Source: a candidate division WOR-3 bacterium
Lineage (GTDB): Bacteria; SDB-A
Direction of reading: 5' to 3'
Length of the DNA stretch: 37,182 bases
Assembly (NCBI GenBank): GCA_016934535.1
Contig: JAFGSQ010000006.1
Location: forward strand, 66,617 to 103,798
Positions 1 through 37,182 of the stretch are shown piece after piece. The notes beneath the pieces were generated by a model that did not search any database, was not told the DNA's origin, and saw nothing but the letters and a program-made list of their open reading frames with translations. A program made the position numbers and the translations under genes. The first letter of the stretch is position 1; the number at the start of each line of letters is the position of its first letter.

Positions 1-625
1 CGAACGTAAAAACCATGAAAAACATTGAAAATTCAGGTATCCAGATATGACGAAAAGCTTCGCGAAGAGCCGGATTTTTGAAGTTTTCTATAAATTCCTC
101 CGTGCTGACATTCATCAAATGTTTTATTTTTCTTCCCTTTGTAACAAAGAGAAGACCCATTCTTGCATAGTTCACCAATTTCTTGAAAAAGGGATCGGCG
201 TCGGAAGGTTTGTCAAAACCGAGGCACATTCTAATGCTGTTTGTGAAATCTTTAATCGGTTTTTCGTCCTCAGGAGAAAATTCAAGCAATTGTTTTTCGA
301 ATTTATCCACGTCTGAGTAGAAAATCAGTTTTCTTCCGTCAGCATACTCGTAGCGCATGAATTCATCCAAATCTATGAATTTGCTTCCTCCGGTTATTCC
401 GACTTCTTGCCAAAATCTGTACATGCCGCTTTTGGGAGAAGAACCTACGAGCCAGTGGACGCACCCGTCAATGGTGTATCCCTTCCTTTTCCAGGCGGTG
501 CAAAGACCTCCGGGCAGATTGTGCGATTCGAATATTTCTGTCTTGTATCCGTTCATTTGAGCATATATGCCTGCGGACATTCCGGCGAATCCCGCTCCGA
601 TGATTATTATCGAGCCGTCTTTCAT
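1..625 (-). CDS. NAD(P)/FAD-dependent oxidoreductase, phytoene dehydrogenase-like (3' end outside window)
   Basis: This is the N-terminal 208 residues of a CrtI/phytoene-desaturase-type flavoprotein; the rest lies beyond position 1. The first residues form a beta-strand followed by GAGFAG at residues 10-15, the dinucleotide (FAD) binding Rossmann motif. About 25 residues on comes an acidic residue (FES), then LPGGLCTAW and a DGCVHW segment, the order seen in CrtI-like proteins and in uncharacterised relatives of bacterial carotenoid desaturases and retinol saturases. The ATG at 625-623 follows a good ribosome site (AAGGAAGGG). It lies 35 bp after the MATE gene on the same strand, so the two are probably co-transcribed. 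The substrate cannot be told from this fragment: carotenoid, polyprenoid or another lipid are all possible. The family call is secure, the substrate is not. Confidence 0.85.
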   Translation of the reverse strand, partial: MKDGSIIIIGAGFAGMSAGIYAQMNGYKTEIFESHNLPGGLCTAWKRKGYTIDGCVHWLVGSSPKSGMYRFWQEVGITGGSKFIDLDEFMRYEYADGRKLIFYSDVDKFEKQLLEFSPEDEKPIKDFTNSIRMCLGFDKPSDADPFFKKLVNYARMGLLFVTKGRKIKHLMNVSTEEFIENFKNPALREAFRHIWIPEFSMFFMVFTF

Positions 626-3663: not shown

Positions 3664-3692
3664 ATTTTAAGACTCTTTAAGGTTTATGTCAA
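3664..3692 (-). promoter_or_regulatory. Sigma-70-type promoter upstream of the nitronate monooxygenase gene
   Basis: On the minus strand TTGACA (3692-3687) is followed after exactly 17 bases by TAAAAT (3669-3664), five of six matches to the -10 consensus. Transcription would begin near 3657, leaving about 237 nt before the ATG at 3420. The long leader contains a possible 19-codon reading frame (3609-3550) but no riboswitch I recognise. Confidence 0.6.
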
Positions 3693-8429: not shown

Positions 8430-8562
8430 TATTCTTGCCCTTCCAAAAGCCTGCGAGGTTAGCTGACGGGCTCGGGTTTGGAAGTACCCTATCCTGTTTC
8501 AGGAATACGCCCCTAAAATTGGGTCCCCCGTATTCATGGCCGTTTTCATGAATTTCGGCGTC
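8430..8562 (-). promoter_or_regulatory. c-di-AMP riboswitch (ydaO/yuaA family)
   Basis: Read on the minus strand, the leader of ktrB contains the ydaO/yuaA hallmarks in order: a CGCCGAA start near 8560, ACGGGGGACCCAATTTT followed by GGGGCGTATTCCTG, an AGGGTAC segment, CCCGAGCCCGTCAGCTAACC and CTCGCAGGC, then GGAAGGGC. The long run ending in CAGCTAACCTCG is highly diagnostic. Between the aptamer and the ATG, GGGCAAGAATA (8440-8430) can pair with TATCCTTGCCC (8399-8389). That alternative stem lies next to the ktrB ribosome site and is a likely expression platform. These riboswitches bind c-di-AMP and usually turn genes off. Position upstream of ktrB-ktrA is a classic context. The exact 5' and 3' limits are approximate. 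Confidence 0.93.
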
Positions 8563-8586
8563 TGTAACGGCAATTTTTTGGGTAGC

Positions 8587-22473: not shown

Positions 22474-22589
22474 TTTACTTCAATTGGTAAATCAATGGAT
22501 TCAATTCATGGTCAGTGTAAAAAGTGTCAAAATCTTTGATCAAAAAAAGTTGACTTAACTCACTGCCTGGACAACTGATTTTCATATAG

Positions 22590-23084
22590 TCATTTTCCCA
22601 TTTTCTTTACCAGTGATATTTCATTCGGTTTAAAACCAAGCTTTTCGTACAATTGCTTGGCGGGATTTGACACTAATACGTTAAGATCGACCTCTTCCAC
22701 GTTCATCTGTTGACCCCATTCCAACATCTTCCCAATCAGTTGCTCCGCAACTCCTTTTCGACGTGCATTAGGTTCAACATATACAGCGCTCAGATGCAAA
22801 CGCTTTTTTTCAACAAATATGCTGTCCAAAGGTTCGATGTCCGCTGAAACCATACCGATTACATCGTCTTTTTGCGACTCGTGATAAGCGATGAGAAATA
22901 TATGTTCTATACTGTAAATATTTGACCTGACATTTTTTTCCATTGCTATCCATACTGAATTAGATTTATCAACTCTATGGCCGCTGTAATTTTCCATCTC
23001 AAGAACCATATTCCTGATAAGATCAGTGATAACCGCAACGTCTTCTATTGTACCCGTTCGTATTTCAATCTGATTTTCTTTCAT
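22590..23084 (-). CDS. GNAT family N-acetyltransferase
   Basis: A 164-residue acetyltransferase. IEIRTGTIEDVAVITDLIRNMVLEM is the usual first strand and helices, and HLSAVYVEPNARRKGVAEQLIGKMLEWGQQ carries the acetyl-CoA loop (RRKGVA). VEEVDLNVLVSNPAKQLYEKLGFKPNEISLVKKM is the conserved final part with the Tyr general acid. I start it at ATG 23084, with GAG about ten bases upstream, rather than one codon earlier at GTG 23087. The substrate is unknown. A promoter-like site 425 bp upstream (23509-23537) could serve it. Confidence 0.9.
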   Translation of the reverse strand: MKENQIEIRTGTIEDVAVITDLIRNMVLEMENYSGHRVDKSNSVWIAMEKNVRSNIYSIEHIFLIAYHESQKDDVIGMVSADIEPLDSIFVEKKRLHLSAVYVEPNARRKGVAEQLIGKMLEWGQQMNVEEVDLNVLVSNPAKQLYEKLGFKPNEISLVKKMGK

Positions 23085-23554
23085 CACTTGATCTCAATAA
23101 ATTAAATTTAACCGGTTCATGTCATTTCTTCCTATTTAAATTTTCTTAACCACAATAAAAAACTCGGTTGCACGGCTTTATGACGAAATTTCGGATTCCA
23201 TGATTCGGTTCAAACATTTTCAATCCAACTGATCAATGATTTTTCTTTTTCACATCATCAGAGTGTATGCAAAATACGACACAATAACGACCATTAACAT
23301 TAACAAGTAGTTAATTAAAAAGCAGTGGTTTTCCTTCATTAATTATTGGTTAAGAGTTAATCTTGAAAAAATTTCCCTGTCCACCCTCATCCTTCACCGG
23401 CGAGAAAGAACTTTTTTGTTGTCAATAAATTGTTGATTGAAAAAATATTTCGAAATGTTTGGGCACAGAGATGATTTCAGGCTTTTCCCCTTCTATGAGG
23501 TTTTTAGTATTTTATATCTGAAAAATATTAATGTCAAATAACCCAAGAATGAAA
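23085..23554. other. 470-bp gene-free region upstream of the GNAT gene
   Basis: No reading frame is supported. It is AT-rich, and near its upstream end it carries one copy of the recurrent promoter element (CCCCTTC box at 23487, promoter 23509-23537). If that promoter is used, the GNAT transcript has a leader of over 400 nt. A TTGACA near 23418 on the minus strand has no -10 partner. I recognise no riboswitch. Confidence 0.5.
23509..23537 (-). promoter_or_regulatory. Recurrent promoter element, copy C
   Basis: TTGACA (23537-23532), 17 bases, TAAAAT (23514-23509), then CCTCATAGAAGGGG ending at 23487. The spacing and the trailing GAAGGGG box match copies A and B, but the sequence upstream of the -35 does not match theirs and runs into the end of the HemN-like gene. 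Confidence 0.55.
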
Positions 23555-24805
23555 TCAATAGAGCCTGATTTCCTTGGGCCAAGGGGTTTCCATGGATGCA
23601 CGCCATGTCTTATCGATGTATTGATGTGTATACGATTGCTCGACAATATGAAAATAGTAACTTCCTGACATCGTCAATTCCCACCCATTACTTGTTCGCT
23701 TAAACAATTTTAATTTCTCCCCCAATTTCAAGTAGAAAGAAAAATCATTTTTCAATCTTGTCTCAAATAATTTAAAATAAGAATCTTCATTTAACACGCC
23801 ATTATAACAGTTCCAGAACAACCAATACGCTCTTCTTGTCCTCGGCGTAAACTCCATTTTCAACACGGTCGGAATCCTGCCCTTATTCAGCGAATCAATA
23901 TACGAATCAACAGAAAAGGTGTTCATTTTAAAAGCATCATTTCCTAGAGAAGCGGCGCTTGGCCCAAACCCCAAAAAACAATCACGGGTCACGGAAGAGT
24001 ATCTCGGAGAGTCCTTTTTCCCGAACGTCCAGACAGACGTTCTTATAAAATTTCTGGCCCAGGCAATCTCCAACAAACCATCGAGCAAATCCTTTTTCTG
24101 GCTGTTTCCCAAGGGTTTGTTCCGATTATTAGCATAACTGAAATCAATAAACGGATATGCTGATATTTGTGTTGCGCCAAGATCTACTGCGCGGGAAAAA
24201 TCTTCTTGAATATTTTGTCTAGTCTGACCCGGGATTCCGAATATTAGGTCTATATCAACGGCTTTGAACTTCTGAGAACATAGTTTTTTTAACTGTTTGG
24301 CACCGTCTGTATATTCTCTACCCAGATTGTTCAGCAGTTGTTCGTCAAACGACTGAATCCCGACGCTTACCATATCAATGTTCGCGCCCAAAAGTTTTTT
24401 TGACGTATCTTTTTCAATATCTTGTGGATGTAATTCTATTCCTGCCAATCCCTTAATTACATATCTGTCATCTAATTCTCTGCGAATATTTTCAAGATAA
24501 TCAACTGCCAGGGCCGGGCTTCCACCTCCAAAATAGAGAGTTGTAAATTTGTTTTCAGAATTCCCGATAATTCTACCGGCAATATCAATTTCAACAGAAA
24601 GCGCTTTTAAGTATGCACTAAACTTGTCTTTTTCAAAGGTTTCCTTGTAATAGGGGCAAAAATCGCACAATGCTTTGCAAAATGGTACATGAACATATAA
24701 TCCGACATCGCGATCGTTGAAATCAGGTAAAAAACCCGTGGCTTTTTTAAACAGGTAAAGTTTTAACTGTTGTCCTATGAATACTCTCAATAAATGAGTC
24801 AGCAT
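23555..24805 (-). CDS. HemN/HemW-like radical SAM protein
   Basis: A 416-residue radical SAM enzyme of the coproporphyrinogen III oxidase-like (HemN/HemW) superfamily. GLYVHVPFCKALCDFCPYY has the cluster cysteines at 43, 47 and 50 in the family form CxxxCxFC. The fourth Cys found in true HemN (CxFCxC) is missing. TLYFGGGSPA is the GGE-equivalent, IELHPQDI and VSVGIQSFDEQLLNNLGR are the next conserved segments, and VDIDLIFGIPGQTRQNI follows. A C-terminal HemN_C-type wing region is present. HemW homologues act as haem chaperones; other members act in haem degradation or unknown pathways. No other haem genes are nearby. I start at ATG 24805 instead of the adjacent TTG at 24808; the ribosome site is weak. 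Confidence 0.87.
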   Translation of the reverse strand: MLTHLLRVFIGQQLKLYLFKKATGFLPDFNDRDVGLYVHVPFCKALCDFCPYYKETFEKDKFSAYLKALSVEIDIAGRIIGNSENKFTTLYFGGGSPALAVDYLENIRRELDDRYVIKGLAGIELHPQDIEKDTSKKLLGANIDMVSVGIQSFDEQLLNNLGREYTDGAKQLKKLCSQKFKAVDIDLIFGIPGQTRQNIQEDFSRAVDLGATQISAYPFIDFSYANNRNKPLGNSQKKDLLDGLLEIAWARNFIRTSVWTFGKKDSPRYSSVTRDCFLGFGPSAASLGNDAFKMNTFSVDSYIDSLNKGRIPTVLKMEFTPRTRRAYWLFWNCYNGVLNEDSYFKLFETRLKNDFSFYLKLGEKLKLFKRTSNGWELTMSGSYYFHIVEQSYTHQYIDKTWRASMETPWPKEIRLY

Positions 24806-24962
24806 CAAAACCGTCTTTTTTATTTTTCCCAGATTTTCAATATTATCTGTGGATTTTTATTTTTCCCAATACCGGGTCTCAACAGTTGGATAACAACCGC
24901 AAATATTATATCATAAATGCCAATTAGGATTAAGCGACCGAAGTTGGAGAAACGGGCAAAGG

Positions 24963-25901
24963 TTATTGAAACAGTTGAGTGTATATGGATTTTTTGTATT
25001 TTTTTAATACTCGTAAAGCCCTCAGCGTATTCCATGTACTGCTCTTTCCGGTCTCTTCCATGTCAAAATGAATCAGTCCGGGATGTTTTTGCTGAACGGG
25101 CCAAGTATTATTTTTTAGTTTTTTAGACATTATTATTTCTAACGCGTCTTCCATTCTGTCGTCAAATTTTTGACCGACGCTTTGAAAATAGTCCAGACAC
25201 CAAAGAATATCGTATCTCCATCTCGTCGGATATGAAAGCATTGTCATTTTTCTGTCTATTACTTTTCCGGTTTTATCAGACTTGTATAATTTATGCATAA
25301 GAATAAACTCGTGCGACTGTATTATTGATTTTTTTATTTCTTTTATTCTATACATATAATTATTGTCGATATACATCTTTAATCCCTCTAAGATATTTAT
25401 TGTCGTGTGAAGAGAGCTGTGGTTTGTGTCAAACTCCCAGCGGCAATTCCAACCGCTGTCTGGAAACTGTTTTTCAAGAATGAAATCAATTATTTCCGAT
25501 AGTCTGCTGTCATTCAATTCAACATAACAGCAAATAAACAACAGCATGCCGCAAATACAAAGGTCCAAATATCGTTCTTTTTTCTTTTCCGGTATTCTCC
25601 ACAATTTTTCCAACAACAGTTTACTGCTTTGGAATATCCTTTTGTCCTGAGGGGGAGCCATGTTGATCAAATCCAGCAAAGTATAAGTCGTCGAAATCCA
25701 CTTCGGAGAATAAATACCGTTTCCCCATGTACAGCTATTATCATCACGCAGATCCATAAACGCTTTCCCCCACCCTTTTTTTAATATTTTGGATCTGTCC
25801 TGTGTGAGTTCAATCTCTTCGAAATCGAGCAGGTCTCTTTTAACTTGATAAATTACTGAGGGATCGCCTTTCATAAACCAATCAAGTAAATCATTATTCA
25901 T
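24963..25901 (-). CDS. Hypothetical alpha-helical protein, prenyltransferase/squalene-cyclase-like toroid
   Basis: A 312-residue soluble protein rich in helix pairs. Segments such as WISTTYTLLDLINM, FPDSGWNCRWEF with HTTINILEGL, and STWNTLRALRVLKKY have the spacing and the aromatic/Gly turn (DSGW) of alpha/alpha-toroid repeats seen in terpene cyclases and prenyltransferases. A catalytic DxDD or zinc site is not visible, so an enzyme role is not supported. I start at ATG 25901 because GAGGAG stands eight bases upstream; a longer frame to 25925 lacks a ribosome site. It lies 67 bp after the AlkD gene, probably in the same operon. Confidence 0.7.
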   Translation of the reverse strand: MNNDLLDWFMKGDPSVIYQVKRDLLDFEEIELTQDRSKILKKGWGKAFMDLRDDNSCTWGNGIYSPKWISTTYTLLDLINMAPPQDKRIFQSSKLLLEKLWRIPEKKKERYLDLCICGMLLFICCYVELNDSRLSEIIDFILEKQFPDSGWNCRWEFDTNHSSLHTTINILEGLKMYIDNNYMYRIKEIKKSIIQSHEFILMHKLYKSDKTGKVIDRKMTMLSYPTRWRYDILWCLDYFQSVGQKFDDRMEDALEIIMSKKLKNNTWPVQQKHPGLIHFDMEETGKSSTWNTLRALRVLKKYKKSIYTQLFQ

Positions 25902-25968
25902 TTTATTTACTCCTCGTTTCGTCAAATATTACTATGCTTTTCATTTTCATCTTTGTCATGAATTAAAT

Positions 25969-26676
25969 TTACCTCTCCATAGCTTTTATTTTTAAATCTT
26001 TCGGTATTTTTTCAATGGCGTACCGTAAAGCGGTTCGTGGCATTTGACTCTTGTTTTTTATTACATAATCAAACACCTCTTTTTGACGGGCTTCACTAGC
26101 AGCTTTGAGCATCCAGCCGTAACCTTTTTGAACCAAATCATCTTTATCCAAAAGCAGAATATCAGCAATTTCTAAAATTTCCTTTAGAAATTTTCCCTTT
26201 CTTGCCGGTATAATCAATGACACGGACGACGCTCGGCGCATCCATCTGTTTTTTGATTTGGCCATGTCTTTTAATCTGCATAAATACTTGGGATACATTA
26301 CAATGAATTCTCCAACCGTATGATTGCAAAGAGTATCGCATGAAGCCCAGTTATCGACATATTTGTCTACCCATTTCTCGAAAATTTGAAAGTCTTCAGG
26401 TTCGAATTTCTTATGGATATAATAAGACCAATGGCAGGCAATGAACGATTCTTCAATAAATCCGGATTGCCATAACCTTTCGCAAATGTCAAATATTTCA
26501 GATTTTGTCTTTGATTCGATAAATTTGAAATATTCCCTGCTTATTTTATTTACAATTGGAACCTTTACCCCGTAAAACTTTATCTTTTCCTTAAAAAATT
26601 TCTGACTGGTTAACTCAGTTTTTTCATCAATGTTTTTTCTCAGTTCTGTTCTTATTTTCTCAATGATTTTTTCCAT
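25969..26676 (-). CDS. DNA alkylation repair protein, AlkD-type HEAT-repeat glycosylase
   Basis: A 235-residue all-helical protein of the AlkD/AlkC-like family, which removes bulky or cationic N3/N7-alkylpurines without base flipping. FFKEKIKFYGVKVPIVNKISREYF is the conserved first repeat (YGVxxPxxR type). WVDKYVDNWASCDTLCNHTVGEFI carries the WD(x)CD region whose Asp and Trp are catalytic in AlkD. NRWMRRASSVSLIIPARKG and DLVQKGYGWMLKAASE are later HEAT repeats with the basic DNA-binding face. The length matches the family. The ATG at 26676 follows AGGA. It lies downstream of vapBC by 92 bp. Confidence 0.92.
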   Translation of the reverse strand: MEKIIEKIRTELRKNIDEKTELTSQKFFKEKIKFYGVKVPIVNKISREYFKFIESKTKSEIFDICERLWQSGFIEESFIACHWSYYIHKKFEPEDFQIFEKWVDKYVDNWASCDTLCNHTVGEFIVMYPKYLCRLKDMAKSKNRWMRRASSVSLIIPARKGKFLKEILEIADILLLDKDDLVQKGYGWMLKAASEARQKEVFDYVIKNKSQMPRTALRYAIEKIPKDLKIKAMER

Positions 26677-26768
26677 AATTAACTGAATTCCTGTCTTTTA
26701 AATTTCTTATCTATATTTGTACAATGTATGACAATTTTCCTAAATTAATATACTTTGCTTGTTTATAT

Positions 26769-27170
26769 TTATTCTTTTACCCAATTCTCAATTCTTATTC
26801 CATCTACTCTTTCAAACTCTTTTATGTTATTTGTGACAAGGATGAGCTTTTTCGTTTTTGCCTGAGCTGCCAACAATAAATCCATTTGACCTATTATTTT
26901 ACCTTTTTTTTCCAAATCTGTTTTAATAATCCCAAAATTAACTGCATCTTTGTCGTCAAATGCTAAAATATTGAAGATTGATAAAAACTCAATCAAAGCT
27001 ATTTTATTCTTTTCAGGGAATTGGCTTTTTGAAACTCCAAATTCTAATTCAGCAATTGTTATTGCTGATATATAAATATCTTTTTTAGATTTTATTTTTA
27101 ATGTCTTTAAAACATCTGCAGGCTTTTTCTTTATGATATAGATACAAATATTCGTATCCAGCAGATACAT
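26769..27170 (-). CDS. vapC: VapC-type PIN-domain toxin
   Basis: A 133-residue PIN-domain ribonuclease toxin, Mg2+-dependent; VapC enzymes typically cut tRNA or rRNA. The acidic active-site residues are in place: Asp5 in MYLLDTN, Glu in ITIAELEFGVSKS, and Asp in IGQMDLLLAAQA, with the LVTNN segment near the end. The start is ATG at 27170, whose A is the last base of the vapB stop (TGATG), so translation is coupled and the antitoxin is made first. A TTG one codon upstream is a less likely start. Together with vapB it forms a type II toxin-antitoxin module with its own promoter. Confidence 0.93.
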   Translation of the reverse strand: MYLLDTNICIYIIKKKPADVLKTLKIKSKKDIYISAITIAELEFGVSKSQFPEKNKIALIEFLSIFNILAFDDKDAVNFGIIKTDLEKKGKIIGQMDLLLAAQAKTKKLILVTNNIKEFERVDGIRIENWVKE

Positions 27171-27400
27171 CAAAACTCTTCTCGTATTTGATTTTTCCCT
27201 TGATTACGGCCTTCTTTCATAAAATCATCAGTGAAACCATTCAAACCTTGAAGGAATACTTCCCATAATTTATCGTGCGGGAGAAGAATAACGGCGTCAC
27301 CAATTTTCTGGATTAGAACATCTTTCCCTGAAAACTGGAATTCCTTGGGTAAACGAACGGCCTGACTTCTGCCATTTATAAAAAGTTTTGCGTTTTTCAT
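27170..27400 (-). CDS. vapB: VapB-type antitoxin (AbrB/MazE DNA-binding)
   Basis: A 76-residue antitoxin. KLFINGRSQAVRLPKEFQFSGKDVLIQKIGDAVIL is a swapped-hairpin AbrB domain of the VapB/MazE kind, and the C-terminal part (DFMKEGRNQGKNQIREEF) is the toxin-wrapping tail. The start is ATG at 27400, with a near-perfect GGAGGTGA seven bases before it. A longer frame up to 27430 would overlap the promoter and is rejected. VapB normally binds vapC protein and, with it, represses this promoter. Confidence 0.93.
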   Translation of the reverse strand: MKNAKLFINGRSQAVRLPKEFQFSGKDVLIQKIGDAVILLPHDKLWEVFLQGLNGFTDDFMKEGRNQGKNQIREEF

Positions 27401-27418
27401 TTTCTCACCTCCGGCAAC

Positions 27419-27447
27419 AGTATATATCATGGTATAGATTCTGTCAA
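27419..27447 (-). promoter_or_regulatory. vapBC promoter
   Basis: TTGACA (27447-27442), a 17-base spacer and TATACT (27424-27419) lie just upstream of vapB. The predicted start near 27412 leaves only about twelve bases before the ATG, almost all of it ribosome site. The spacer contains an imperfect TATACCATGATATA repeat that could be the VapB operator. Confidence 0.72.
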
Positions 27448-27549
27448 TATTTTAACTAAACCTTCAAACATCGATTATGGAAAAGTCATGAATAAAAATC
27501 ACATATCCTTTGTTGCCGGTAGGGTCTAAAATTTAAAAATATTTTTACT

Positions 27550-30500
27550 CTAATTCAATTTTATGGTTTTAATCTCAAATGGTTTGAATTTCAAGCTGAT
27601 TGATCCGCAATTTTCAAAGTCGAGTTGCTCAGTTATATTTTCCAGGAGATCGGTTTCAGAACAATTTTTATAATTAGCTTTGGGCTGAAAGATAAACTCG
27701 CCGTTGCGACCGCAGGTCTCGTAAAATCTCAGGACAATTCCTTTCCCTTTCTCAGCCGGTTTAATTGCCTCTATTTTAATATTTCCGCTGTCACCAATAA
27801 TTGTCATAGGGTTTTGAAAGTCAGGAATTATTTTGGCTGAAAACCTGAGAAGTGGAGTATTGAATTCATGAGCCTTTTTCCAGGTGTCGCTCACCTCTAT
27901 CCGGTTTTTGTGAACATAGTAAGCAAAAGCAAATCCATGGATTCCCTGATCGGCAATATTGCCGTCAGGCATGACGGGAGAGCGCAGAAGATTTAGGTCA
28001 ATAGTCGAACCTTTAATATAATGACCGTATTTGCAGTCGTTGAGCACGGCAAAACCGTAGCTGTGGTTGCTCAATCCTGCATAACGGTGAGCGCAGATTT
28101 CAAAACGTGCGGTATCCCAGCTTGTGTTATTATTATTGGGACGGCTGATTGAACCAAACTGAATTTCCGATATGGAATCATTGCAGAGAACTGACGTTTC
28201 GGCTGACAACCTCAGCATTTTTCTCTTTTCCTGCCAATGAACAGTATTGTCAAACCTCAAAAGAGAGGATCCCTCTTCAAGAGTTATATCCTGTTCTATG
28301 AGACTCTCCGCAATTTTAAGCTTTTGCAGTATTTTAATTCTGAATCGGTTGATTTCAATAACATTTCGTTCCAGGAGTTTTGGTTTTATCGGAGGCTTTT
28401 CCCGGTAATAATGGTTGATGTCCCATGCTTCCCATTTGAGCGGTTCATCGTCATACAACAAAAACTGGTTTGCCGGTCCGCTCAGAAATTCGTAATCATA
28501 TTCTTTATGAAAAAAGGATCCAATGCTTCCATCGTCTTCCAGTCTGATTCTGACCAAGCTGTTTTCCAGTACATTGTCTTTAAAAGATAGTTCGTTAAAT
28601 GTATCTTTTTTGAGTTCCGTGGTTCCCGTTGTCACGGCGATCATTGCCATTGGAGGCAAATCGAGGCAAAAGATCAGCTTGTCATCCTGCCTTTCGGCAA
28701 AAAACCTTTCTCCTGTCTCTGTAAAAACCTCGTTTTGTTCTTTATCAACCGGAAGTTCAACTGTCTCCCTGCGTTCCCAGTTGAGGGTATTCATAAAAAC
28801 ATGATACTTGCCGGAAGTTTCCTCATCATAAAATTCACTCAATATTTGGGTCTGAATTTCATCCAATAGAGATAAATTTTTCTCACTGAGAGCATGAGCG
28901 TCTTCATAGACCTGTTTTATTGAGGAACCGGGCAGAATATCGTGAAACTGATTGAGCAGAGTGTTTTTCCAGATTTTCTCCAGTTCTTTTACAAAAATTC
29001 CTCCGTTTATCGCCGAAAGAAATTCTATATCTCTGAGTCTTTGCTCAAGTCTGCGGTTATATTTTTTCATCAGGGCCTGTGTAGTATAAGTTCCCCTGTG
29101 CAGTTCAAGATAAAGCTCTCCCACCCAAACCGGCAGGATGTTTTTATCAATTTCGCTGATTTTTTTGAAAAAATCCTGTGCAAAAGCAAACTTGAACCGG
29201 GGTACACCGTCGGTGTTCTGCTGGCGCAGGCCGTATTCAATATGTTCTCTTCCCGGTCCGCCGCCGCCGTCTCCGTTTCCGTAGAGATTCAAAAAAGCGT
29301 CGGCAATGTCGCTCTGAGAAAATTTTTCTTCACCTTTAATAAGTTCTTTGGGAGTGTTGGCAACATTGTAGTCGTCAGTCGGCAAAAAGTGCGCAATGAC
29401 AGAACTTCCGTCAATGCCCTGCCAGTTGAAAAGATGATGCGGAAAGCGGTTGGTTTCATTCCAGGATATCTTCATTGTCATAAAATAGTCAACTCCGCAC
29501 TTTTTTAGAATCTGGGGCAAGGCGGCGCTGTAACCGAAAACGTCGGGCAGCCAAAGATTGTTGATTTCCTTTCCGAACTCATCCCTGAAAAACCTTTTTC
29601 CGTATAGACATTGTCTGACCAGAGATTCCGAACCGGAAAGATTCATATCCGGCTCCACCCACATGGCTCCCTGTAATTCCCAGCAGCCTTCCTCGACGGC
29701 TCTGCGGATTTTCTCAAAAAGCAGGGGCTGATCCTGCTTGACCCATTCGTAGAGCTGAGGCTGACTGGCTCCGAATTTGTACAGGGGATATTCTTCCATC
29801 ATCTGCAAAGCCGTTGCAAATGTTCTAATCCCTTTCCGTCTGGTTTCTCTGACCGGCCAGAGCCATGCCATGTCAAGATGGGCATGACCTATGGAATAGA
29901 CTGTCAGAGCCGACCAGGATGCCGGCACAGCCAGAAGAGATTTGGTAATATTCAGGGAATTTTCTATAAAACAGTTTTCATCCGGCAGATTTAAAATTTT
30001 GTTGAGCTCCGAGAAAATTCTTTTTCTGCGGACCGAACCGTTTTTCTGGTTTTCAGCGATCTCGTAGAGCACCCGCATATCCATCCATAATTCAAAAATT
30101 TTCTTGTCAAAACGGACAAGATCAGACCCATTCAAAAAATAATCCTTTTTGCCTGCTTCTCCGAAAAGCGAATTGGCCGAAGTCTCAAGAATAAGTTCAA
30201 ATTTATCCCCTGCCGGTTTTATTAAGGGGTAATAGTATTTTCCTGCCCTGAGATCCCAATGTATTTTGTTTGTAAGTCCGGCGACCGGAATCTTGTTTTC
30301 AAAGACGCACGATTCTCCGTCAGTGTCGAGATAGACACCGAAATCGGAGTTCTGCCATTCTTTTGGTATTGTTCCGTAAAACTTAAACCACCCGCAATCC
30401 CAGACCTCCCCCCATTTTTCTCCGGTTTGAATCTGCTGAAAATCCATGGTCTGCATCTTTTCATAACTCACCGGGATATTTTTGGTATTAATGTAGAAAG

Positions 30501-30591
30501 CTTTTAAGGGAATGGCATCAAAATAGACTTTTTTGCCGAGTCTTTCTATAAACTGCTTTATTCTTTCGCCGTATATTTTCTCATTCTGCAT
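27550..30591 (-). CDS. Alpha-mannosidase, glycoside hydrolase family 38
   Basis: A 1013-residue GH38 enzyme that releases alpha-linked mannose. The catalytic domain shows the zinc site and nucleophile: GHAHLDMAWLWP (His238, Asp240), LWLPDVFGYSAALPQIL (Asp350, the nucleophile and a zinc ligand), and NQFHDILPGSS (the last zinc-binding His). An N-terminal beta-sandwich-like region precedes it, and a long C-terminal beta-rich part follows, as in bacterial and yeast-type alpha-mannosidases of about 1000 residues. No signal peptide is seen, so it is probably cytoplasmic and acts on imported oligosaccharides. I chose ATG 30591; a TTG at 30627 would add 12 residues (residue numbers here are for the ATG). 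It follows the 222-residue hypothetical gene by about 50 bp. No sugar transporter or other mannose gene is nearby. Confidence 0.93.
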   Translation of the reverse strand: MQNEKIYGERIKQFIERLGKKVYFDAIPLKAFYINTKNIPVSYEKMQTMDFQQIQTGEKWGEVWDCGWFKFYGTIPKEWQNSDFGVYLDTDGESCVFENKIPVAGLTNKIHWDLRAGKYYYPLIKPAGDKFELILETSANSLFGEAGKKDYFLNGSDLVRFDKKIFELWMDMRVLYEIAENQKNGSVRRKRIFSELNKILNLPDENCFIENSLNITKSLLAVPASWSALTVYSIGHAHLDMAWLWPVRETRRKGIRTFATALQMMEEYPLYKFGASQPQLYEWVKQDQPLLFEKIRRAVEEGCWELQGAMWVEPDMNLSGSESLVRQCLYGKRFFRDEFGKEINNLWLPDVFGYSAALPQILKKCGVDYFMTMKISWNETNRFPHHLFNWQGIDGSSVIAHFLPTDDYNVANTPKELIKGEEKFSQSDIADAFLNLYGNGDGGGGPGREHIEYGLRQQNTDGVPRFKFAFAQDFFKKISEIDKNILPVWVGELYLELHRGTYTTQALMKKYNRRLEQRLRDIEFLSAINGGIFVKELEKIWKNTLLNQFHDILPGSSIKQVYEDAHALSEKNLSLLDEIQTQILSEFYDEETSGKYHVFMNTLNWERRETVELPVDKEQNEVFTETGERFFAERQDDKLIFCLDLPPMAMIAVTTGTTELKKDTFNELSFKDNVLENSLVRIRLEDDGSIGSFFHKEYDYEFLSGPANQFLLYDDEPLKWEAWDINHYYREKPPIKPKLLERNVIEINRFRIKILQKLKIAESLIEQDITLEEGSSLLRFDNTVHWQEKRKMLRLSAETSVLCNDSISEIQFGSISRPNNNNTSWDTARFEICAHRYAGLSNHSYGFAVLNDCKYGHYIKGSTIDLNLLRSPVMPDGNIADQGIHGFAFAYYVHKNRIEVSDTWKKAHEFNTPLLRFSAKIIPDFQNPMTIIGDSGNIKIEAIKPAEKGKGIVLRFYETCGRNGEFIFQPKANYKNCSETDLLENITEQLDFENCGSISLKFKPFEIKTIKLN

Positions 30592-30642
30592 AAATTTCTC
30601 TGCTGAATGATTCCACTGCCTGTTCAACTGAATCTATTTGCC

Positions 30643-31311
30643 TCACCACTCTTCTCTTACTTTTCCAAATAAACTGATTAGGTCTTCTTCCAGATTCCGC
30701 TTCTCAGCAGCAATAGACTTCAATGAACAAAGAGCACTTCTCGCTATACAAGCCTTATAGGACCAACTGTATGGACTTTGAGCAGGGTCATCATCATTGA
30801 TTTCCAAGTCTCCTGCAACAACGGCCATTGAAAGCAGTTGCGTGTTTTCAATGATCCATAACCACATTTGATCATCAGGAGGGAAAAGGTCTTCTTCCCA
30901 AACCTCCACCTGTCGGCTGTGATCGATTCCCTTCTTCACAACTTGTGTATTTTCTTGCGTGGGTTCTTTCAGCCAGGCTTCAACATTCTTGAGTTGTTTC
31001 TCAATAGTCTCCCCATCGAGACATGGGTCGGTTTCTAGAAAGGCAAAACCGAGGTCTTTGACTTGAACAAGATGGTTTTCAAAAACATAATCCCACGCAT
31101 AGCGTGCGAAGAAGGTTGCGAACAGGATAGCTGTACTTCGGTCGAGTTCGGCAAGTTGCTGCATGAACGTATCGAAAGATTTCTCCAGGGGTAGGGTCGC
31201 AAAAAGCCAATTTTTGGTTGGCGGATTTGTGTTTTCATTGCAAAGTAGAAAGAATTTGTTAATATCAACGATTTGTGCGATTTGTCTCTTGATTTCTTCC
31301 AGTTTCATCAT
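30643..31311 (-). CDS. Hypothetical protein upstream of the GH38 gene
   Basis: A 222-residue soluble, mostly helical and acidic protein (pI clearly low) with many Trp and Glu. I do not recognise the family. Helices such as SFDTFMQQLAELDRSTAILFATFFARYAWDYV and MWLWIIENTQLLSMAVVAGDLE are amphipathic. No signal peptide, membrane segment or metal motif is visible. The C-terminal ARSALCSLKSIAAE segment resembles the conserved end of immunity- or DUF6931-like small proteins, but I would not assign it. GGAGAT precedes the double ATG at 31311. It is first in the transcript that includes the alpha-mannosidase, downstream of repeat copy A. Confidence 0.7.
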   Translation of the reverse strand: MMKLEEIKRQIAQIVDINKFFLLCNENTNPPTKNWLFATLPLEKSFDTFMQQLAELDRSTAILFATFFARYAWDYVFENHLVQVKDLGFAFLETDPCLDGETIEKQLKNVEAWLKEPTQENTQVVKKGIDHSRQVEVWEEDLFPPDDQMWLWIIENTQLLSMAVVAGDLEINDDDPAQSPYSWSYKACIARSALCSLKSIAAEKRNLEEDLISLFGKVREEW

Positions 31312-31474
31312 TTTTAATATCTCCTGATTGTGTTTTTGTCACAGACCCGGCATAAGATTAGGATTACTAATGACAAAGCATGCGTTGCTTTCAATCATTG
31401 TCTATCCTAAGTTGAATGCTAATTGAAGATTTATTTTGGTGAATGACCCGCAGTAAAGAAATAATTGGTCCTTA

Positions 31475-31685
31475 CCCCTTCAGTGGTTTTGTATCTCAAT
31501 ATTAAAATTGCATATGGGAGCTGTCAAATACTGAATCATTTCTTTTCAGTCTATATTTTCTATTTCATTTTTTGGATTTATTCTAATGTAATGGCTTAAA
31601 TTCGTTAAGTCCATATTTTGAGCCATTCTACATGAAAACCGAGTAAAAAAAATGATTCAAAAACTTCAGAGACAATATTTTTCTC
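31475..31685 (-). repeat. Recurrent intergenic element, copy A
   Basis: About 210 bp aligning by eye at roughly 75-80% in its core with copy B (34426-34640). Shared text includes CCCCTTCAGTG at the low-coordinate end, TCTGAAT/ACTGAAT next to the -35, TTTTCAGTCTAT, TTTGGATTTA and ACTTCAGAGA near the other end. It lies between korB and the 222-residue hypothetical gene and carries a promoter reading toward the latter. The rest of the 437-bp gap (31312-31748) holds no gene. Confidence 0.75.
31499..31527 (-). promoter_or_regulatory. Promoter in copy A, reading toward the hypothetical-GH38 operon
   Basis: TTGACA (31527-31522), 17 bases, TAATAT (31504-31499), followed by the CACTGAAGGGG box. The -10 is identical to copy B. 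The predicted leader to ATG 31311 is about 180 nt. Confidence 0.6.
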
Positions 31686-31748
31686 AACAATAATATTTCG
31701 GCTGGTTACGAAAGAAGTTGATATAGAGCTGTAACTTATGCCACAGTA

Positions 31749-32612
31749 TTACACTTTTTTTGAATCCAGTATTTTCTTCAGTTTATCTATGCCGGGTTTT
31801 GTTTTATAAAGAGGTACGGATTCTTTTCGTTGCGGAAAAAGGTTTTCTTCGAAAACAGTATTTTCTGTAGTGTTATAAATAACTCCGAGAGAAAATTTAT
31901 TGTTTTCAAGTGCATTGCGCATTGCCTTGTCTCTGTCTGTTGAATCCCAGGATTCATCCAGATAGTATGTATTGTCTCGATACCAGCGAAAATTATTTTC
32001 TTTATTGAATGAAACGCAGGGTTGCAGTATGTCAACCAAAGAATATCCTTTATGGATTATCGCTTTTTTTATAATCTCTCTGGTTTTATCAACATCCCCG
32101 GAAAAAGCCCTGGCGACAAATGAAGCGCCCATTGCTACAGCAACAGCGGCAGGATTAAACGGTTCAAGATATACACCGGCAGTCTGAACGGGAGTTTTGA
32201 AGCCACGTTTACTTGTCGGAGAAGCCTGCCCTTTTGTGAGGCCGTAAACCATATTGTTATGAACAAGGTTGGTTATATCCGGATTTCTGCGGATTGTTGC
32301 CAGAAAATGATTTCCACCCTCGCCGTAAGTGCATCCGTCGCCGCTTTCAGCAATAACAGTCAGTTTGGGATCAGTCGCCTTTATGGCTGTCGCCGCCGGC
32401 AGTGATCTGCCGTGAAGACCGTTGAAGAAACTAACATTAATATATTGAGGCATTTTCGCGGCCTGACCTATGCCAGAAACCATAACAAGCTGATCTCTTT
32501 GAATCTTCAGGTCATCAAGAGCCCCTTTTAGCGCTTTGAGTATATCAAAGTTGCCGCATCCCGGGCACCACGCGATATCAATTTCCCTATTAAAATCAAA
32601 AATGGATGACAT
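31749..32612 (-). CDS. korB: 2-oxoacid:ferredoxin oxidoreductase beta subunit (KorB-like)
   Basis: A 287-residue thiamine diphosphate-binding subunit. [13 protein letters not shown] at about residues 17-29 is the conserved N-terminal Cys motif. [46 protein letters not shown] carries the TPP-binding GDG-(x)-N motif and the classic MVYGLTKGQ(A/Y)SPTS. With the alpha/gamma subunit it oxidises a 2-oxoacid to acyl-CoA and CO2, reducing ferredoxin; the reverse reaction is used for carbon fixation in some anaerobes. The subunit layout fits 2-oxoglutarate (Kor) or branched-chain types; substrate is not fixed by sequence. The ATG at 32612 follows AGAGGT, four bases after the korA stop. Confidence 0.92.
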
Positions 32613-32616
32613 GAAT

Positions 32617-34365
32617 TTACCTCTCTGCCGGGTTTATGAATTCTTGTGTCAGTTCTTCCACGCTGAAAGGCATTCCATTATATTTAGTAATCTTCCTGTC
32701 GAATTCAAAGCTTGTAAGCATCCGTATAAGCAGGGCGAATTGTGACGAGAAATTATTTTCGACGATTATGGTTTTGCTCGCTTTTTTTAAATATATTTCT
32801 GTCTGCCTGTGTAAAGGGAAAAGCTGGGTGAAATGCAGGAGAGCCGTATCCTTTGCACCCGAAGATATGAGTGCTTCAAGTACCGTTTCAAGTGTCGAAC
32901 CCCACGAAACAATGAGTGTTGTGTAGTTTTCTGGGCCATAAAGATCGGGAGCTATAATATCTGGTTCCATAGCTTTAATTTTCCCCATTCTTTTGTTTAC
33001 CTGAGCAGTTCTGACAGAAAAACTTTCTGTTATGTATCCTCCTTCATCGTGTTCATCGCTGTCAACACAGACTATCCCTGTGCCGTATCCGGGAATTCCT
33101 CTGGGTGAAATTCCGGTGTCTGAAATTGTGTATCGCTGATATTTATCATCAGTTTCAACAATAATGTTTTCGTTAGAAAATTCATCCATTTTTATTTCAG
33201 GGATGGTGGTGTATGAGTCAAGATAGTACTGATCTGTCAGGATAATGACCGGCACCTGATATTTATCGGCAATGTGAAAGGATCTCGCGGCAAGAAATAA
33301 ACCCTGACGGAAGTTTCCCGGAGCGTATATTACCCGTGGAAATTCGCCATGACCGGCGAAAAGTGTGAAGAGGAGATCGCTTTGTTCGGTTCTCGTCGGT
33401 AATCCTGTTGCGGGTCCGGGTCTTTGTCCGATGTGAATTACCACAGGGGATTCGGTGGCGCCCGCGAGACTTAAGCCCTCTGCCATCAGCGCGAAGCCTC
33501 CTCCCGATGTGGTGACCATTGCGCGGCCTCCTGCATACCAGGACGCGATTGCCATATTGATCGCGGAAATTTCATCTTCAGCCTGTTCAACGGCTATATT
33601 CAATTCTGTTGAATGTTTCGCGAAATTTACAAGAACATCAGTCGAGGGCGACATCGGATAAGAAGAAATGAAGTTGCATCCTCCGGCAATGGACCCGTAG
33701 GTTATTGTCTCTGCACCATTCAACAGTATTTCCTGTGAAAGCGCCGGAGCTGGATCCGGAATCCGGATTACCTGCCGGTTGTTGAATAATTCCTGCCCTT
33801 TTTCAAATCCCGCGGAAGCTGCATTAATGTTACTATCAATTTTATCGGAGGCGGCAGATGAGAAATAGGATTGCACCTGATCTATAAGCATATAACGATC
33901 AATTTTAAAAAGGGCGGCGAATAGTCCCATTATTAAAAGGTTCAGGTATTGTTTCCCTCCGGACTCTTTCGCCATTTCTGTAAAAGGAATATCTATAAAA
34001 GTATAATTTTCATTTTTGTAAATATCATTAATAAAGACTGCTTCACCAATGATAACTGTATCGGAACCGATTCTCTCTTTGAACCGGTCCATAGCCCCTT
34101 CACCGAATGGAATAAATATATCTATTCTGTCGGTAAATGCGGTTTTTCTTTGTGAAGAAACTCGAATTAACGTTGAGTTGTTGCCTCCTCTAATCCGCGA
34201 CATAAATTCACTGTATGAAAAAATATATCTTCCTGAAATTTTAAACATCCTCAATAAAAGACGTTCGAGGGTTTGTATACCCTGGCCGGCCTGACCAGAG
34301 AGTACGATTGACAGGTCTAAACTGTTTTCTGTCATTGAAGCTTTTGTATCCCTTGAGTTCATCAT
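32617..34365 (-). CDS. korA: 2-oxoacid:ferredoxin oxidoreductase alpha subunit, gamma-alpha fusion (KorA-like)
   Basis: A 582-residue protein with two parts. Residues from about 15 to 190 are the gamma domain ([19 protein letters not shown] at the start). The rest is the pyrimidine-binding alpha domain, with [29 protein letters not shown], then [44 protein letters not shown] and [18 protein letters not shown]. These are the usual landmarks of Kor/Vor-type fused alpha subunits. It pairs with korB four bases downstream; no separate ferredoxin subunit gene is present, so a free ferredoxin is expected to take the electrons. The start is ATG at 34365 with no good ribosome site; an ATG at 34335 (before [12 protein letters not shown]) is an alternative. 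Confidence 0.92.
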
Positions 34366-34425
34366 TCTTTTACTGGAAAATTATGTTTACGAGACAGGAT
34401 GTTCCTAAGGCAGGTTCTTGCATTT

Positions 34426-34640
34426 CCCCTTCAGTGAGGTTTGTTATTTTATATTAAAACCGTGAAGAGTTGTTGTCAAATTCTGAATTATTCTTTTTCA
34501 GTCTATTTTTTCTGTTTCATTATTTGGATTTAATCTAATGCAATGACATTAAATTCTTCGAGTCAAGCATTTGCACTATTCATTCTAAAAATTGAACGAT
34601 GAAAAATATTTTAAACAACTTCAGAGATAGTTATTTTCTC
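34426..34640 (-). repeat. Recurrent intergenic element, copy B
   Basis: The partner of copy A, in the same orientation. The core between TTTTTCAGTCTAT and the GAGTC box is the best conserved part. It fills most of the 331-bp gap between the NimA-like gene and korA and carries a promoter reading into korA. With copy A it brackets korA-korB as direct repeats. The rest of the gap (34366-34425 and 34641-34696) holds only the hairpin described separately. Confidence 0.75.
34451..34479 (-). promoter_or_regulatory. Promoter in copy B, reading into korA
   Basis: TTGACA (34479-34474), 17 bases, TAATAT (34456-34451), followed by CCTCACTGAAGGGG. The leader to ATG 34365 would be about 80 nt. Confidence 0.62.
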
Positions 34641-34663
34641 TCAAGCTGAGGTCGCTATCTCTG
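34622..34663 (-). terminator. Inverted repeat after the NimA-like gene (possible terminator)
   Basis: CAGAGATAG (34622-34630) and its exact complement CTATCTCTG (34655-34663) flank a 24-base loop, 34 bp beyond the stop of the NimA-like gene. No T-run follows directly, so intrinsic termination is uncertain; a Rho-dependent end or an mRNA stabiliser is possible. Confidence 0.35.
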
Positions 34664-34696
34664 GATGATTCCGGTTTGAAACGGTTGTTGCGCAAT

Positions 34697-35179
34697 TTAA
34701 CCAATATATTTCTTTCCTATAATAGATTCAATATCCAATCTCAGTATTGTCACTTTATTATACGATTCATCATTCTTTATGTTTCTTTCAAATATCGGCT
34801 TTGGATCTTTTTCAAGATGGTTCAATAAAATCTGGAGTCCATGTTTCTTTTCTTCCAGGTCTGAAACAATAAATATATTGCCGCGTACTATAAGTGAAGA
34901 ATAATCATGATCACATTGAGTTTCCAAATAGCCTTTATCCTCTATTATTGTTCCGCATACTTTGCTGTTCATTTTTATATAATCAAGTTTATCGCCTTTA
35001 TTCGCGCAGTGAAAATAGAAGCAATTCCTGTTTTTATCAAAACCATAACTCAAAGTTACAATATAGGGATTATCATTTACTGACAATGCAAGTGAAATAT
35101 GATTTCCAATTTTTATTATTTTGTTTATTTCACTTTGATCCAGAATTTCATTACGTAAACGCTTTGGATGATACTGCAT
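34697..35179 (-). CDS. NimA-like flavin protein (PNPOx superfamily)
   Basis: A 160-residue split-barrel protein of the NimA/pyridoxamine 5'-phosphate oxidase-related family. MQYHPKRLRNEILDQSEINKII is the usual NimA-like opening, followed by ISLALSVNDNPYIVTLSYGFDKNRNCFYFHCANKGDKLDYIKMNSKVCGTI and DYSSLIVRGNIFIVSDLEEKKHGLQILLNHLEKDP. Members bind FMN; some reduce 5-nitroimidazoles, most have unknown roles. I start at ATG 35179 because GGAG lies six bases upstream; the ATG at 35191 has none. It lies between the acquired-looking glycosyltransferase and repeat copy B. Confidence 0.88.
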   Translation of the reverse strand: MQYHPKRLRNEILDQSEINKIIKIGNHISLALSVNDNPYIVTLSYGFDKNRNCFYFHCANKGDKLDYIKMNSKVCGTIIEDKGYLETQCDHDYSSLIVRGNIFIVSDLEEKKHGLQILLNHLEKDPKPIFERNIKNDESYNKVTILRLDIESIIGKKYIG

Positions 35180-35283
35180 TGCATTCTCCATTCAAGTAAT
35201 TCAATTATTCTTTGAGCACGCGACAGCGCGTCCGCACAACGCCTGCACCGGCAAAATCTAAAAGAGGAGGATCGTGATTCCTC

Positions 35284-36873
35284 TCATTCAAAGTGCTTGT
35301 ACTCCGCCCAGGCGCGGTCGATCGGGACATGCCGGTCGCGTACGATAAATATCTTCAGATTATTCTCCTCTGGCATGCAATGCATGCACGTGTGCAGACC
35401 GGCCTGCATGACGTCGCCGTAGGACTCGAAGTAATCTTCCCGGTTTCCACCCAGCCGGATAAATGTCGTCACCGGCATTGGGCCGACACCCCAAAACCAG
35501 TAAGAGTTGTGGTTGCATATCACACGCGGCAGAAGATATTTGTGCGCGTACAACTCCAGCGCACCTGCCTCGCCGTAATTCGTGACGAAGACAACCGTCG
35601 TGGCCCGTTCGGTATCTGGAATAGAGACATAAGCCTTCGATACATTCTGCGCAAGCTCCTCCCACCCGTGCATGTCGGCGAAGAACTGCGGAAGATCCCC
35701 GAGTTCCTGGTTTTCCGGCGTGTTCGGCGCTACACCAAGCGCTTTTGAGTAACTCAGGTACAAATTCACGGGCAGGATCGGAATAGCAAACGGCGCGAGA
35801 ACCGCTCCCGATAGGACGAGGATCGTTGGAACGCCCCAGCGCCATGGGAATTTAGCCGTGCCGAGGCAGACACCGCCACAAGCAAATATCATCGGGTAGG
35901 CTGCAACGATGTACTCCGATTTTGTATGAGAGTTGGCGATAAGTACTCCAAACACAGTGAGGAACATTATACCGATGAGCCGTCGCGAACGTTCATCTTT
36001 ATGAGTAAAACACCACACGAGACCCGGCAGTGAAACCAAGTACGTAAACGGATTCATTCCCCAGAACTGATCGACGACAAAGCGCCACCGGGTGAGTGAT
36101 GAATACTTCTGCTCCAAAGCGTTCCGCATGAACTCGATGTGTGGCCAGCCGTTCAGGGCATTCCAGATCACAAAGGGTGAGAAAATCGCGAGAGCAACAG
36201 CTGCCGCCGCGTATGGCCCAGGGGTCTTGAGCTGAAAGCGCAATCGCCTGTCGAATAAAATTACAGCGGAAACGCCTGCTCCAAGCCATAGAACGCTTGT
36301 CTTATTGAGAAGTCCCAGGCCAAGAACAAATCCAAGCCAGATCCATGCCTTGAACCTGGCGCTTTCAGCTGCTCCGATAAGCGCATGGACCGCCAAAAGC
36401 CAGAACATGACGTCGAGGCTGTTCATCGAGAAGTAAGTGTGGAGACTCAGCATCTGCGGAGCGGCCAATAACGCCAGCGAAGCCAGTACGATCGAGGCGC
36501 GGCCTCCTCCCATTCGCCGGGCGAGGATGCCCGTTAGAGCAACGGACACGCCGAAGAGAATAGCAGGTACGAGGCGAATGGCAAACACTGAATCACCGAA
36601 GAGACTGCACGCTACTGCTAAGACGAAAATCGATAGAGGCGGTTGATCAACATATCCCGCATCGAGATGTTTACTGCAAGCGATATAATAGAGCTCATCC
36701 CGAAAATACCCGTAACCGCCTATGGTGTTTGCGATGATGAGCACGGTGAGCGCCAACACCGCCATTACGAAAATCGTAACCCAGTTCGATGAACGCGCCT
36801 TTCCTGCAGTTTCTGTTTTTGTCAGGTCTATCTGGGCAGATTCATCGCCCTCACCACACATGATGCTCAACAT
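35284..36873 (-). CDS. GT39-like membrane glycosyltransferase, probably horizontally acquired
   Basis: A 529-residue integral membrane protein of the ArnT/PMT (GT39, GT-C fold) type, which moves a sugar from a polyprenyl-phosphate donor to a lipid or protein. After the first helix comes GYFRDELYYIACSKHLDAGYVDQPPL: Asp59-Glu60 is the expected acidic pair of the first periplasmic loop, and YVDQPP is the family's next motif. About 10-12 hydrophobic segments follow, then a soluble C-terminal part. G+C is near 55-60%, far above the neighbours (one 60-base line within the gene is 60%, against 27% in a line of vapC), and codon use changes likewise, so recent transfer is likely. The GC-rich tract ends near 35215. 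The first ATG is at 36873; an ATG at 36861 is nearly as good. A GAGGA/TCCTC hairpin at about 35262-35283 could end the transcript. Confidence 0.87.
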   Translation of the reverse strand: MLSIMCGEGDESAQIDLTKTETAGKARSSNWVTIFVMAVLALTVLIIANTIGGYGYFRDELYYIACSKHLDAGYVDQPPLSIFVLAVACSLFGDSVFAIRLVPAILFGVSVALTGILARRMGGGRASIVLASLALLAAPQMLSLHTYFSMNSLDVMFWLLAVHALIGAAESARFKAWIWLGFVLGLGLLNKTSVLWLGAGVSAVILFDRRLRFQLKTPGPYAAAAVALAIFSPFVIWNALNGWPHIEFMRNALEQKYSSLTRWRFVVDQFWGMNPFTYLVSLPGLVWCFTHKDERSRRLIGIMFLTVFGVLIANSHTKSEYIVAAYPMIFACGGVCLGTAKFPWRWGVPTILVLSGAVLAPFAIPILPVNLYLSYSKALGVAPNTPENQELGDLPQFFADMHGWEELAQNVSKAYVSIPDTERATTVVFVTNYGEAGALELYAHKYLLPRVICNHNSYWFWGVGPMPVTTFIRLGGNREDYFESYGDVMQAGLHTCMHCMPEENNLKIFIVRDRHVPIDRAWAEYKHFE

Positions 36874-37182
36874 AAGATTAGTCGTAACAATTCAAAAAGA
36901 ATGGTTTACGCTCCATAATTACCTGGTTTCTGTTGGCTGTTAATTGAAAAAAAAATATTAGTTAAATAGCGCTTAGAAAAGAAATGATTTGGTATTTCTC
37001 CTCCAATAAACAAGTATGAATAATAATAGAACTGTAGTTATTTCAAGTCAAACAAGGATTTTTAATTTAGGATAGTTGTTTATCTTTTGTTCTTAGTAAA
37101 AAATATATTTTAAACCACTAGTGTCCTATAAAAAATAAAAAGAAAAAGACTGGTTCCTAAAAAGAAAATATAATCAAAAAAA
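36874..37182. other. AT-rich upstream region of the glycosyltransferase gene
   Basis: This 309-bp end region has no gene. It carries the fourth copy of the promoter architecture (37023-37051) and, near 37116-37133, a CACTAGTGTCCTATAAA stretch that resembles insertion-sequence ends. The first 85 bases beyond the ATG can be aligned loosely with the leader downstream of copy A: both begin CATAAGATTAG and later read TAATTGAA. Confidence 0.5.
37023..37051 (-). promoter_or_regulatory. Recurrent promoter element, copy D, reading toward the glycosyltransferase gene
   Basis: TTGACT (37051-37046), 17 bases, TATTAT (37028-37023), then GGAGGAG ending near 36999. The architecture is that of copies A-C; sequence upstream of the -35 is not clearly related. 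The leader to ATG 36873 is about 140 nt. Confidence 0.5.

Follow-up and report, generated by a model that had tools for sequence, protein, structure and literature searches.

A probable dispersed promoter repeat with apparent remains of a tyrosine recombinase upstream of unrelated genes in a candidate division WOR-3 bacterium

Promoter-like sites and their genes in the window

The analyzed window, i.e., the whole 37,182-nucleotide stretch from a contig of a candidate division WOR-3 bacterium, harbors four minus-strand sites, A to D, at which an earlier note had described TTGACW, a 17-base spacer, TAWWAT, and a purine box in front of a hypothetical-GH38 operon (A), korAB (B), a GNAT gene (C), and a glycosyltransferase gene (D). 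All four sites are present where the note had placed them (Table 1), with the box reading GAAGGGG in A, B, and C and GGAGGAG in D, and Pfam identifies the products of the named target genes as GNAT, GH38, korB/korA-type oxidoreductase, and PMT_2-type glycosyltransferase. The hexamers are of the sigma-70 type at each site (10–11 of 12 consensus matches, spacer 17), and the box follows the -10 hexamer after 15 (C), 17 (A), or 18 nt (B and D), which lies inside the previously given range of 13–24 bases. The end of the window at 37182 is also the contig end and lies 131 bp upstream of site D.

Table 1. Positions of the probable repeat copies (sites A to D), their parts, and related stretches in the window
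Feature	Position	Strand	-35	-10	Box	Basis or remark
Site C, repeat copy	23422..23540	(-)	TTGACA 23532-23537	TAAAAT 23509-23514	GAAGGGG 23487-23493, then leader	leave-one-out E 1.5e-9
Site A, repeat copy upstream of hypothetical-GH38 genes	31409..31530	(-)	31522-31527	31499-31504	GAAGGGG 31475-31481	leave-one-out E 8.5e-9
Site B, repeat copy upstream of korAB	34358..34482	(-)	34474-34479	34451-34456	GAAGGGG 34426-34432, then AAATG	leave-one-out E 8.8e-16
Site D, diverged repeat copy upstream of PMT_2-family glycosyltransferase	36929..37054	(-)	TTGACT 37046-37051	TATTAT 37023-37028	GGAGGAG 36998-37004	leave-one-out E 2.3e-7
A/B duplicated stretch, A side	31488..31685	(-)				repeat families D1 and D6; partner 34440-34640
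A/B duplicated stretch, B side	34440..34640	(-)				same repeat search and alignment
~1.0 kb including GNAT gene 22590-23087, between box C and methyltransferase start	22485..23484	(-)				absent at orthologous G002 locus

Rfam models gave no match at sites A to D; the sole match in the window is a c-di-AMP riboswitch (ydaO type, RF00379, 85.8 bits) at 8433-8570 on the minus strand, upstream of an open reading frame at 7014-8369. A pair of MazE-like antitoxin and PIN-domain toxin genes at 26769-27430 (minus strand) has a near-consensus promoter, TTGACA-17-TATACT, at 27419-27447, which is not accompanied by a GAAGGGG box.

The combination of promoter and box at the four sites is real and far beyond chance. 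The motif TTGACW-16..18-TAWWAT occurs five times in the 37-kb window versus 0.30 expected, four of the five being sites A to D, and the full pattern with GAAGGGG occurs three times versus 0 in 100 dinucleotide shuffles. The genome-wide search suggested in the earlier note extended the set: scanning all 2.23 Mb of the assembly with the strict pattern added one good site, C45:25477, and a profile search (see below) added C48:8893 and C48:7765. The box alone was not enriched in the window (four GAAGGGG found versus 4.07 expected). Convergence of independent strong promoters, each with a Shine-Dalgarno box, would agree with this chance frequency of GAAGGGG and with the fact that each feature is ordinary when taken alone; it is contradicted, however, by the shuffles as well as by the leave-one-out recovery and the homology beyond the box described below, and we regard it as highly improbable.

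Two further pattern matches deserve mention. The fifth strict promoter of the window, at 3664-3692 on the minus strand, reads TTGACA-17-TAAAAT followed by GAAACGGGGAAATATG and, after a leader of ~230 nt, by a nitronate monooxygenase-like gene; it is possibly a very decayed further copy of the repeat (6.8 bits, E 0.27). The fifth pattern match in the genome is C43:18499 (L004). It is located where genes end, the profile score in its vicinity is only 8.5 bits (E 4.5), and it was therefore not counted. A strict scan of other genomes, which as an exact-pattern search would miss diverged copies and may leave out records near the window's own genome, returned three matches in 84,980 species genomes and none in IMG/VR. 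The three matches look like chance: in two cases the box is the Shine-Dalgarno sequence of an unrelated gene, and the third apparently lies in a coding sequence.

Copies and extent of the repeat

Besides this genome (G000), the comparison covered two sister species of the same genus (G001 and G002) and the nearest relative from another genus (G003). BLAST with site B retrieved copies in both same-genus genomes, G001:C70 and G002:C83. A sequence-only profile, built from an alignment of seven sequences over 150 columns and run over the four genomes, recovered all seven aligned copies and two that were not in the training set, followed by a gap to the next matches. The two additional copies, C48:8893 (E 1.1e-9) and C48:7765 (E 1.4e-6), each carry TTGACA-17-TACAAT/TTAAAT and bring the number of copies in G000 to seven (A, B, C, D, C45:25477, C48:7765, and C48:8893). 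Leave-one-out profiles recovered each of A, B, C, and D (E 8.8e-16 to 2.3e-7), with no non-copy under E 0.4. A match in a sister species at G001:C45:1812 (E 0.0025) probably represents a decayed copy and was left out of the certain count. The profile search found no convincing copy in G003, where the best match (C208, E 0.001) proved to be the Shine-Dalgarno sequence and start of an ordinary gene.

Most pairs of copies are ~58–68% identical. Site C and the C45 copy share 66% over 193 nt, and CTCACWGAAGGGGAAATGCAAGAACCTGYCTT is common to site B and the C45 copy. Site D, with its deviating box, belongs to the family because its likeness continues for ~100 nt past the box, as seen in a BLAST alignment with A (246 nt, E 5e-11) and in its recovery by a profile built without it. 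Based on these similarities, sites A to D are probably copies of one short, old, dispersed, and genus-restricted repeat, and a genus-specific repeat that is decaying vertically is the best reading of its distribution.

Where the likeness begins and ends is informative. Mean pairwise identity upstream of the -35 hexamer is at chance level (0.30 versus 0.28 in shuffled sequence), is highest in the -35 (0.91), the box (0.84), and the -10 (0.77), values that are inflated by the choice of sites on hexamers and box, and amounts to 0.41 in the spacer. In successive stretches after the box it declines from 0.54 (first 20 nt) to 0.43, 0.43, and 0.34. When the comparison is confined to DNA beyond the box, 13 of the 45 pairs reach significance (p ≤ 0.002), among them A with D, B with C45, B with G001, B with G002, and C with C45, whereas A with B is the sole significant pair in a shuffle test of upstream DNA. 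The shared unit thus extends from the -35 hexamer to at least 85–110 nt beyond the box. Post-box-only profiles, in which promoter and box were left out, no longer recovered sites A to D in the leave-one-out test, so that the evidence from this part is pairwise: A with D; B with C45, G001, and G002; and C with C45. Overall, the homologous repeat spans at least 130 bp at unrelated loci and in sister species. The earlier note had remarked that ordinary promoters share no sequence downstream of the -10; this is right, and the sharing observed here is due to common descent.

The left edge of the repeat at the -35 hexamer is well supported, though it need not be an exact element end. The BLAST alignments of B with the G002 copy and of A with D reach further upstream, but in the shuffle test upstream likeness is confined to A and B. 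The likeness of A and B outside the repeat (73% identity over 218 nt, including ~160 nt upstream of the promoter) is a local duplication. A mosaic origin of A, with a B-like upstream part and a D-like leader, was suspected, but the alignment was not clean enough to retain it.

Recombinase remains in the leader and genes behind the copies

In C45, G001:C70, and G002:C83, an ATG shortly after the box opens a reading of the downstream DNA that ends in HKSSKMTEIYTH, a frameshifted HKNSKKTEI(L)YT, and HNSSKTTKIYTHFSK..NPLDD. A hmmsearch of six-frame translations, using a profile built from tyrosine recombinases of these genomes, scored the G002 copy at 25.3 bits and the C45 copy at 17.1 bits, compared to 5.9 bits for the best of 3,000 shuffled frames. 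When the G002 reading was searched against plasmids by tblastn, it aligned without gaps from its first methionine to the end of Persicobacter recombinases/integrases (E 1e-3), matching MLRHSFATH...NPLD. By its predicted translation, the leader of the least decayed copies is the worn 3' end, ~55 codons long, of a gene for an integron/XerC-like tyrosine recombinase. Three copies (C45, G001, and G002) carry this relic; A, C, and D are linked to the family by DNA alone, and the recombinase reading is not recognizable in them. In C45 and G001, a conserved inverted repeat, TATGATARCT/AGYTATCATA, comes after the relic, and the DNA past this inverted repeat is alike up to AACACCT, beyond which the genes differ.

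Site B and five copies from outside the window retain an ATG after the box, whereas A, C, and D have lost it. The box is therefore best read as a former Shine-Dalgarno site, and GAAGGGG(AA)ATG looks like a ribosome-binding site with start codon, the box being at the position expected for the Shine-Dalgarno sequence of the recombinase gene. At site B (34330-34432, minus strand), the longest-ORF start of korA (34365) falls within the decayed leader, which suggests that the true korA start may be further in, e.g., at the ATG of MTENSLDL. In G003, the intact gene L032 has the C-terminal motif of the relic without this promoter or box upstream. At L105 (G003:C394), an intact recombinase gene is directed towards accessory genes; its stop codon is followed by GATATACGCAATAGGA..TTTACACAA-like DNA, as is also found after Persicobacter recombinases, and this DNA is possibly the attI of such platforms.

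The genes downstream of the repeat copies are functionally unrelated, and across the seven copies in G000 the same promoter sequence stands before non-homologous genes. On C48 (L090:7765-9787), the genes for a Phd/ParE toxin-antitoxin pair lie in the 1.1 kb that separates two copies, and the second copy precedes a methyltransferase gene. Matches in G001 and G002 to the genes behind A to D are remote (at most 34% identity, partial) or absent: korA reaches at most 34% over a part, GNAT 30% over a part, and GH38 25% over a part, and the PMT_2 gene has no match in these two genomes. As the genes behind them have no close orthologue in the sister species, sites A to D resemble a promoter that has been spread and not the control regions of a co-regulated gene set.

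The locus of site C provides a relative age. Its flanking genes are conserved in G002 (radical SAM, 86% amino acid identity over the last 65 residues; methyltransferase, 74% nucleotide identity), and window positions 23754-23485 and 22484-21475 have their matches as neighbors on G002:C59. There, the radical SAM gene is followed by a decayed promoter C with box and then directly by the methyltransferase gene. Copy C thus predates the divergence of the two species; the ~1.0-kb difference (Table 1) is either a gain in G000 or a loss in G002.

The earlier note had offered two readings of the common box, a mobile promoter-bearing element and a regulon with RNA-level control. The element stands in that copies homologous over 130 bp or more occur at unrelated loci and in sister species, with pairwise likeness after the box, and it may have been mobile. 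The regulon, in which a regulator or the ribosome would act on RNA 5' ends and selection would keep promoter and box, is not supported, as the downstream genes are unrelated and the leaders have no common structure: RNAalifold gave -0.13 kcal/mol with four weak pairs. A regulon would explain why the hexamers and the box are the best conserved segments, why the 17-nt spacing is constant in all nine aligned copies, and why A and C retain the box despite the lost start codon. However, homology continues at least 85–110 nt past the box in sequence without common structure, the leaders of three copies hold a recombinase relic, and the conservation of hexamers and box is inflated by site selection. 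We therefore consider a regulon improbable; selection may nevertheless act on promoter and box, given that hexamers and box are better conserved (0.77–0.91) than the rest (0.34–0.54).

Origin of the repeat and comparison with known systems

We propose as the likely overall explanation that the sites belong to a dispersed repeat which now provides ready-made promoters for acquired genes. The repeat would begin with the -35 hexamer at its left end and comprise a sigma-70-type promoter, a short leader that includes a Shine-Dalgarno-like box, and, where preservation is best, the decayed recombinase end. Most likely, it arose from an integron-like platform in which the integrase gene was directed at the captured genes, and more precisely from the recombinase end of that platform. 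Copies would have been carried to new places by recombination and would now serve as promoters, judging from their hexamers and position, for the acquired korAB, GH38 operon, GNAT, PMT_2 transferase, ParE/Phd pair, and methyltransferases. What the sequences show directly is the homology, number, and position of the copies, the recombinase relic, and the fact that the sister genomes lack close orthologues of the genes behind A to D. The copies within the genus stand in different contexts, and the loci compared include no clean insertion, which counts against the proposal.

A narrower form of this explanation, which we entertain tentatively, holds that the copies are remnants of in-line integron platforms with cassette promoter and attI, and that the genes behind them are captured cassettes. 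It draws on the succession of relic, inverted repeat, and conserved DNA ending in AACACCT in C45 and G001, on cassette-like cargo (Phd/ParE, methyltransferases, HEAT), and on a promoter that, by sequence, would read into the presumed captured genes; Treponema has integrons in which intI is directed towards the cassettes (PMC3607928). On the other hand, G000, G001, and G002 yielded no full integron integrase, with the intact PF00589 genes of G000 and G001 being XerC/XerD-like only, no canonical attI core (GTTRRRY) was recognized beside the copies, and A, B, and C precede larger operon-like groups without recognizable platform remains. Rather unlikely, in our assessment, is a variant by which a genus-specific element originated as the 3' part of an in-line integron integrase gene together with promoter and ribosome-binding site, multiplied alone, and became the promoter by which acquired genes are regularly taken into use, recombination recurring at the junction formed by its promoter-box segment.

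The dispersed repeat that we favor suggests a way in which a bacterial lineage that is poorly known may equip newly captured genes with a functional promoter immediately, and it connects repeats of this kind with what is left of a recombinase platform. A further lesson is that a common leader box can reflect shared descent and not shared control.

Several known systems resemble the repeat in part. BrickBuilt of Porphyromonas gingivalis is a bacterial MITE that is short, dispersed, intergenic, and possibly acting as promoter (PMC4596501, which also cites putative mobile promoters). The repeat is likewise short, dispersed, intergenic, and possibly promoter-acting. Unlike MITEs, it has no terminal inverted repeats, the inverted repeats found being internal, and we do not claim it as a MITE. 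A target-site duplication is not apparent at the one orthologous locus compared, that of C. Treponema integrons are also known to include promoter-supplying cassettes (PMC6557892). As in a Treponema-type integron platform, a promoter and a tyrosine recombinase end lie upstream of accessory genes in one direction, but the integrase is cut to its last ~55 codons or less and several copies exist per genome; with neither an integrase nor a canonical core, the repeat is not claimed as an integron member. Putative mobile promoters, reportedly described by Matus-Garcia and colleagues in NAR in 2012, are said to be promoter-containing repeats before unrelated genes. The repeat differs from these in that its copies are diverged (~58–68% in most pairs), confined to one genus, and associated with a recombinase relic; near-identical copies marking a recent spread are lacking, with most pairs at 58–68% and C predating the split from G002. 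Like putative mobile promoters, however, its promoter copies stand before unrelated genes.
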